Origin: Candidatus Gastranaerophilales bacterium
GTDB lineage: Bacteria > Cyanobacteriota > Vampirovibrionia > Gastranaerophilales > Gastranaerophilaceae
Assembly: GCA_016280955.1 (NCBI GenBank)
Contig: JAEEHV010000043.1
Coordinates: 1-64,000 of the forward strand
Direction: 5' to 3'
DNA length: 64,000 nt
Shown here: positions 57,377-58,272 of the stretch, in pieces
Position numbering within the stretch: position 1 is the first letter of the stretch
Layout: each line of letters opens with the position of its first letter
Notes under the pieces: model-generated
The model's database searches: none
What the model was told of the DNA's origin: nothing
Seen by the model: only the letters and a program-made list of their open reading frames with translations
Position numbers and translations under genes: made by a program

Positions 57377-57472
57377 AATGCAAAAAAAAAGCACATACCG
57401 TGCTTTACTAATATATTTTAGAGAAAGAGAGAAATATAAATCTTTTTATACTTTATTAATAACTGACAAAAC

Positions 57473-57598
57473 TTATGAATTAATCATTCTGTCCAGTTCA
57501 TAAACTTTTAATACGATAGTATCAAGCTGCTCTTTAAACCATAAAGCAAACATGCCTACCTGTTCGCGAAAGCTGTAACATCCCGGCCACATATACAT
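57473..57598 (-). CDS. 41-aa small protein of unknown function (below the ORF-track length cut-off)
   Basis: MYMWPGCYSFREQVGMFALWFKEQLDTIVLKVYELDRMINS; strong SD AGAAAGGAG (as in the flagellin gene) upstream; preceded by a sigma-28-type promoter. Confidence 0.75.
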   Translation of the reverse strand: MYMWPGCYSFREQVGMFALWFKEQLDTIVLKVYELDRMINS

Positions 57599-57636
57599 AA
57601 TTTGTACTCCTTTCTGTTAACCTTCTTACAATTTCT

Positions 57637-57663
57637 ATATCGGCATAATTTTCAAAAACTTTA
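57637..57663 (-). promoter_or_regulatory. Sigma-28 (FliA)-type promoter
   Basis: On the minus strand TAAAGTTT-N11(TTGAAAATTAT)-GCCGATAT: 15/16 to TAAAGTTT-N11-GCCGATAA. Confidence 0.85.
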
Positions 57664-57769: not shown

Positions 57770-58156
57770 TTATGCCGCAAATATATTTTTGAGATTCTTG
57801 TCAATTACGTAGTCACATAATTCACCTGTGTAAGAATCTTCTTCATCGCCGTCTTTGTTGGAAGTAAAATCATCCCACAGTTCGCCCAAAACATATTTCT
57901 TTTTCTTATCCTCAGCACGGCTTCTGAGATAATTCATTGTTTCTCTGAGTGAATTGTGCAAACTAATCTGAGCTGAAGTACTAAAAATAACAAAAGCAGA
58001 AGATGCCGGGTAATTTTTTGCTGCAAAGACAGTACCTGAAGAAGCTTCTTCAGCTTTTTCCGTATTCACAGCATTTGTCCGGAGAGTACTTTTTGCCATA
58101 CTTTCCGAAAATTCACGATTTTGAAAACCCATTGATGTTGATACATTGATACCCAT
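57770..58156 (-). CDS. Hypothetical 128-aa protein, predicted FliA regulon member
   Basis: MGINVSTSMGFQNREFSESMAKSTLRTNAVN...; downstream of an exact sigma-28 consensus promoter. Confidence 0.75.
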   Translation of the reverse strand: MGINVSTSMGFQNREFSESMAKSTLRTNAVNTEKAEEASSGTVFAAKNYPASSAFVIFSTSAQISLHNSLRETMNYLRSRAEDKKKKYVLGELWDDFTSNKDGDEEDSYTGELCDYVIDKNLKNIFAA

Positions 58157-58245: not shown

Positions 58246-58272
58246 TTATCGGCACATTTACCCAAAACTTTA
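58246..58272 (-). promoter_or_regulatory. Sigma-28 (FliA)-type promoter
   Basis: On the minus strand TAAAGTTT-N11(TGGGTAAATGT)-GCCGATAA: 16/16 match with the exact 11-nt spacer. Confidence 0.93.

Follow-up and report, generated by a model that had tools for sequence, protein, structure and literature searches.

A small protein gene with its own sigma-28 promoter represents a seemingly unannotated family in Gastranaerophilales with and without flagellin

The window analysed here is a 64,000 nt stretch of contig JAEEHV010000043.1 from a Candidatus Gastranaerophilales genome (GCA_016280955.1), and the features mapped below between 57388 and 58272 lie on its minus strand. Translation of the 41-codon ORF reported at 57598..57473 yields exactly the 41 aa small protein given for it in the preliminary description, MYMWPGCYSFREQVGMFALWFKEQLDTIVLKVYELDRMINS, with the stop codon included in 57473..57598. 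The Shine-Dalgarno sequence AGAAAGGAG (57607..57615) is, as had also been reported, identical to the string preceding the flagellin ATG at 449. It is preceded by a leader element, AAGGTTAAC (57616..57624), and by a sigma-28 (FliA-type) promoter, TAAAGTTT-N11-GCCGATAT, at 57637..57663. This promoter had been scored as a 15/16 match; it is present and conserved, but the match is exact (16/16). A hairpin at 57388..57406, of 8 pairs with 3 of them GC, is followed by a T run and resembles an intrinsic terminator. With this hairpin in place the 41 aa gene looks monocistronic, and a solitary transcript of approximately 240 nt would be expected.

Six-frame searches recovered orthologues of the 41 aa gene from 32 of the 33 other genomes searched in the same genus. 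The single congener without one, G012, is represented by a genome that is 80% complete. Across 53 distinct genus-type sequences the entropies at codon positions 1, 2 and 3 are 0.64, 0.20 and 1.13 bits, and the median pairwise dN/dS (904 pairs) is approximately 0.17, a ratio that is approximate because synonymous divergence is high. A GGAG-type Shine-Dalgarno sequence is almost universal in the orthologues. On this comparative sequence evidence, we conclude that the ORF is a genuine small protein gene under purifying selection, and the checks by homology and dN/dS suggested in the preliminary description were both passed. The surroundings of the gene are less constant. Its commonest neighbours are an amidase gene or an unknown 645 aa gene in the same genus and a receiver-domain protein or ClpB gene in other genera. 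As no neighbour is shared order-wide, and none ties the gene to sigma-28 or export genes, synteny was rejected as a functional clue.

The sigma-28 box is retained with the gene. At up to 2 of 15 mismatches it was found in all 53 distinct genus-type upstream regions and in 0.1% of shuffled ones, placing the promoter far above chance, and the spacer is 11 bases in 52 of the 53 from this flagellated genus. Comparison of loci L076-L102 with the genus-type set revealed a slightly different form in the flagellin-negative genomes, where TAAAGTTT-N12-NCCGATA was present at up to 2 of 14 mismatches in 24/28 small-gene upstream regions (0.9% of shuffles), with a 12 base spacer in 23 of the 24. The first base of the -10 box is G in the flagellated genus and mostly A in the flagellin-negative genera. 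The window contains 4 sigma-28 sites at up to 3 mismatches (1.4 expected), and the whole assembly has 34 at up to 1 mismatch and 64 at up to 2. As a reversed-pattern control returned only 9 at up to 2 mismatches, a sizeable sigma-28 regulon appears to be real in the source genome, which encodes a FliA-type sigma factor (TIGR02479, best E 4.1e-69). A box of the TAAAGTTT-N11-GCCGATAA type at a transcription-competent distance, kept in orthologues, is best explained if the 41 aa gene belongs to the FliA/sigma-28 regulon of Gastranaerophilales.

The leader includes a GGTTA(G) motif, between the start site and the Shine-Dalgarno sequence, that recurs in the leaders of the 41 aa gene and is enriched in both clades: of 53 genus-type leaders 14 contain GGTTA, against 3.4 expected from shuffling, and of 48 leaders from other genera 28 do, against 3.1. 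A palindrome, TACAT-N-ATGTA, lies past the -10 box in some congeners. As a looser TGTA stretch is also present at other sigma-28 starts of the genome, it was dropped as a candidate operator.

The preliminary description placed a second sigma-28 promoter within about 0.6 kb, and one is indeed present 609 bp upstream, at 58246..58272 (TAAAGTTT-N11-GCCGATAA, 1 mismatch). It precedes a 128 aa gene (57770..58156) for which a perfect TAAAGTTT-N11-GCCGATA box was found at 9/9 orthologous loci read, including its own. This gene was recovered from 21 of the 24 other congeners searched and from none of the 17 genomes searched in other genera. In congeners it is found at other loci, and it is a neighbour of the 41 aa gene, not a conserved partner. 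Where both genes could be placed, they are on different contigs (for example, C2 and C1 in G019; C11 and C4 in G005) or approximately 16 kb apart (G009). As the 128 aa gene is genus-restricted and located elsewhere in relatives, its adjacency to the 41 aa gene in the window is incidental. The compact class-3 flagellar island proposed for the pair is therefore unsupported, the 41 aa gene also having no positive link to flagellin (see below). The broader idea of a set of sigma-28 small proteins was right in kind, but the set is dispersed and is not limited to flagellated cells.

One further member of that set, a 51 aa sigma-28 small protein (MLKKI..SPS.N....EFILRGA+KRR), was found in 178/196 genomes of the order. 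In the source genome it is encoded at C51:1405-1557 on the minus strand, and at this and nine other loci read, which include flagellin-negative genomes, a sigma-28 box with 0-2 mismatches was present in 10/10. Other short sigma-28-linked candidates, with lengths of 48-50, 60-75 and 119 aa, were also found repeatedly. Those of 48-50 and 119 aa in flagellin-negative genomes (five loci) have in common a C-terminal motif resembling D-[MV]-TLP-[IL]-Q-x-[LM]-FD-[DE]-[VM]-[MI]-N-[FY]-V. The products of many sigma-28-linked genes of the source genome (at ten loci) are long proteins whose N-termini are polar and which match Pfam poorly or not at all; these are possible type III export substrates.

When a consensus of the 41 aa protein was used as the query and weak matches were dropped, the family was found in 119 of 196 Gastranaerophilales genomes. 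Its members are solitary, usually single-copy, 37-50 aa proteins in which W-[PA]-G-x-Y-x-F is followed by one amphipathic helix, and W, G, Y, F, E and K positions are invariant or near-invariant in the alignment. When they were read, the weak matches from other families of the order turned out to be genuine. Each has W-x-G-x-Y-x-F, or in G006 and G016 a close variant of it, and a sigma-28 box lies upstream of most of these loci. A class-wide profile search returned no credible match outside the order, the one in G306 (E 0.035) being judged to be chance. Profile searches of 44 genomes that were negative in the first queries were still negative; a match at E 0.0025 among them sits inside a 693-residue frame and was also taken as chance. 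Searches of Pfam, NCBIfam and PHROGs returned neither a match passing a curated cut-off nor one shared consistently by the members. A profile search of the PDB returned generic coiled coils only and no credible family match, and Foldseek with the predicted helix returned nothing. This order-wide small-protein family is seemingly unannotated.

The distribution of the family was compared with that of flagellar genes. Flagellin_N was found in 75/196 genomes, where the flagellin-negative class is defined by one Pfam model applied to draft genomes. The small gene was carried by 78/121 genomes without a flagellin match and by 41/75 with one (odds ratio 0.66, p = 0.18 by Fisher test), so that 78 of the 119 genomes carrying it are without detectable flagellin, and its presence does not follow flagellin as that of a flagellar class-3 gene would. 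A FliA/WhiG sigma factor scored over the cut-off in 192/196 genomes and FlhA in 196/196, and the flagellin-negative genomes with the small gene retain both. As the family is missing from approximately 39% of genomes that retain FliA and FlhA, the small protein cannot be an obligatory component of the sigma-28/type III export programme.

The FlhA proteins fall into two score classes. One, at approximately 850-890 bits, was found in nearly every flagellin-bearing genome. The other, near 710-736 bits, is the class of the flagellin-negative genomes, but many genomes with flagellin have it too, including the source genome. In the two genomes where its context was read, the source (C81:24000-43000) and the flagellin-negative G060 (C1:437000-456000), the second FlhA is encoded in a fliE, fliF, unknown, fliH, flhA operon. 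This operon is predicted to encode a flagellum-like type III export apparatus that is separate from the flagellum. According to Soo et al. 2014 (PMC4040986), the flagellar genes retained by most Gastranaerophilales are only a partial set, insufficient to build a flagellum. Our literature search found no discussion of a sigma-28 regulon in Gastranaerophilales.

The 41 aa protein was modelled as a single helix spanning residues 5-40, with pLDDT above 90 over residues 11-40. Hydrophobic positions follow 3-4 heptad spacing with conserved charged positions between them, a pattern that suggests self-association, and the fixed aromatic N-terminus could be where a partner docks. Residues 22-41 gave weak PDB sequence matches to trimeric coiled coils (E 0.05-1) that are suggestive only. 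Neither a signal peptide nor a transmembrane stretch was apparent by eye. A single predicted helix would in itself say little about function.

As most carriers are without flagellin, the small protein probably serves the sigma-28/type III export programme and not the flagellum itself. The explanation we favour, tentatively and with somewhat less than even confidence, is that it acts as a helical, self-associating cytoplasmic adaptor or regulator of this programme, a biochemical role that we infer. It would be made when sigma-28 is active, and the single helix, remaining in the cytoplasm, may self-associate as a coiled coil. The N-terminal W-[PA]-G-x-Y-x-F cap could then dock on a partner belonging to the programme, for which the sigma factor, the export gate or ATPase complex, and an export substrate are candidates. 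The protein would be an adaptor or regulator and no part of a flagellar filament. The family is a marker of a sigma-28 regulon that persists where flagellin has been lost, and it points to what FliA and a flagellum-like export apparatus may be doing in gut relatives of Cyanobacteria that are not motile. Sigma-28 small proteins are easily overlooked in draft genomes and are omitted from annotation, and the family offers a small group of genes for experimental work.

The axial and needle subunits known so far are about 80 aa or more in length. A different proposal, that the small protein is exported by the flagellum-like type III apparatus or forms a minor structural part of it, as a secreted single helix that polymerises like an axial component, would fit a solitary gene with its own strong promoter and Shine-Dalgarno sequence, the heptads of the amphipathic helix, and the presence of an export locus in both the source genome and flagellin-negative G060. 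However, proteins of 37-50 aa are far below the size of such subunits, the N-terminus is a fixed aromatic motif where export substrates usually have a polar, disordered one, and many FlhA-bearing genomes have no family member. We consider this proposal unlikely, though worth keeping in mind.

The class-3 flagellar island of the preliminary description would make the small protein a flagellar class-3 accessory, such as a motor, chemotaxis or filament factor. The sigma-28 control of the gene in a flagellated genus is consistent with this, as is its conserved position beside a flagellin gene in a few congeners (four loci). But in addition to the majority of carriers that have no flagellin match, 34 flagellin-bearing genomes were without the small gene in the first search, and the 23 of these that were re-tested by profile were still negative. 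A role as a class-3 accessory is therefore rather improbable.

The order has a FliA/WhiG factor almost throughout, but FlgM was over the Pfam cut-off in 0/196 genomes, while three known control genomes passed. FlgM was also rejected as the resident anti-sigma factor among 13 sub-threshold matches, since, of the three that were opened, one was a 402 aa ORF and the others were copies of a mobile-element segment that carries a recombinase. With no FlgM over the cut-off, an unrecognised anti-sigma factor could exist in the order, and the small protein is one candidate for an anti-sigma or feedback factor for FliA in FlgM's place; its gene is sigma-28-controlled, as FlgM partly is in enterics. Nonetheless, a protein as short and divergent as FlgM may simply escape detection, no FlgM chain was among the PDB matches up to E 10, and the family is absent from approximately 39% of FliA-bearing genomes, the 51 aa protein being the better-distributed candidate. 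We regard this role as very doubtful.

That the ORF is incidental to a sigma-28-dependent small RNA, of a kind known in E. coli (PMC10578931) and compatible with a predicted transcript of this length ending in its own terminator-like hairpin, can be set aside as extremely improbable given the strong protein-level selection, the conservation of start, Shine-Dalgarno sequence and length, and a 3' UTR that folds no better than shuffles (z -0.7).

A more far-reaching reading concerns the order as a whole. Gastranaerophilales would then have a FliA-type sigma-28 regulon that is uncoupled from flagella and serves the second flagellum-derived type III export apparatus, with order-specific small proteins of the W-x-G-x-Y-x-F and 51 aa families regulating it in place of FlgM. 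This is a speculative scenario to which we assign a low probability.

Several known systems resemble the 41 aa protein in part. The anti-sigma-28 factor FlgM (PF04316) is likewise small, sigma-28-linked and usually present in one copy. However, FlgM is approximately 100 aa, exported and co-operonic in many bacteria, and the 41 aa protein matched neither PF04316 nor any solved FlgM chain. WXG100 (ESAT-6-like) proteins also combine a W-x-G motif with helix, but they are hairpins of approximately 100 aa with the motif in the turn, whereas W-x-G in the 41 aa protein is N-terminal and precedes one helix. At 41 aa, with one predicted helix and no Pfam match, it falls outside WXG100. The flagellar export chaperones FliS, FliT and FlgN are helical bundles of more than 100 aa with no sequence match to the 41 aa protein. 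They are small, helical and cytoplasmic, as proposed for the protein described here, and work with FlhA (PMC8527033). The flagellar co-expressed determinants (Feds) of Campylobacter jejuni are, according to a passage in PMC6196472 that cites Barrero-Tobon and Hendrixson 2012, non-structural sigma-28-regulon proteins with no direct part in flagellar assembly, and in this they parallel the role proposed here. C. jejuni is flagellated, however, whereas the Gastranaerophilales family persists without flagellin, and to the extent that family libraries show, the Feds have no sequence relationship to it.
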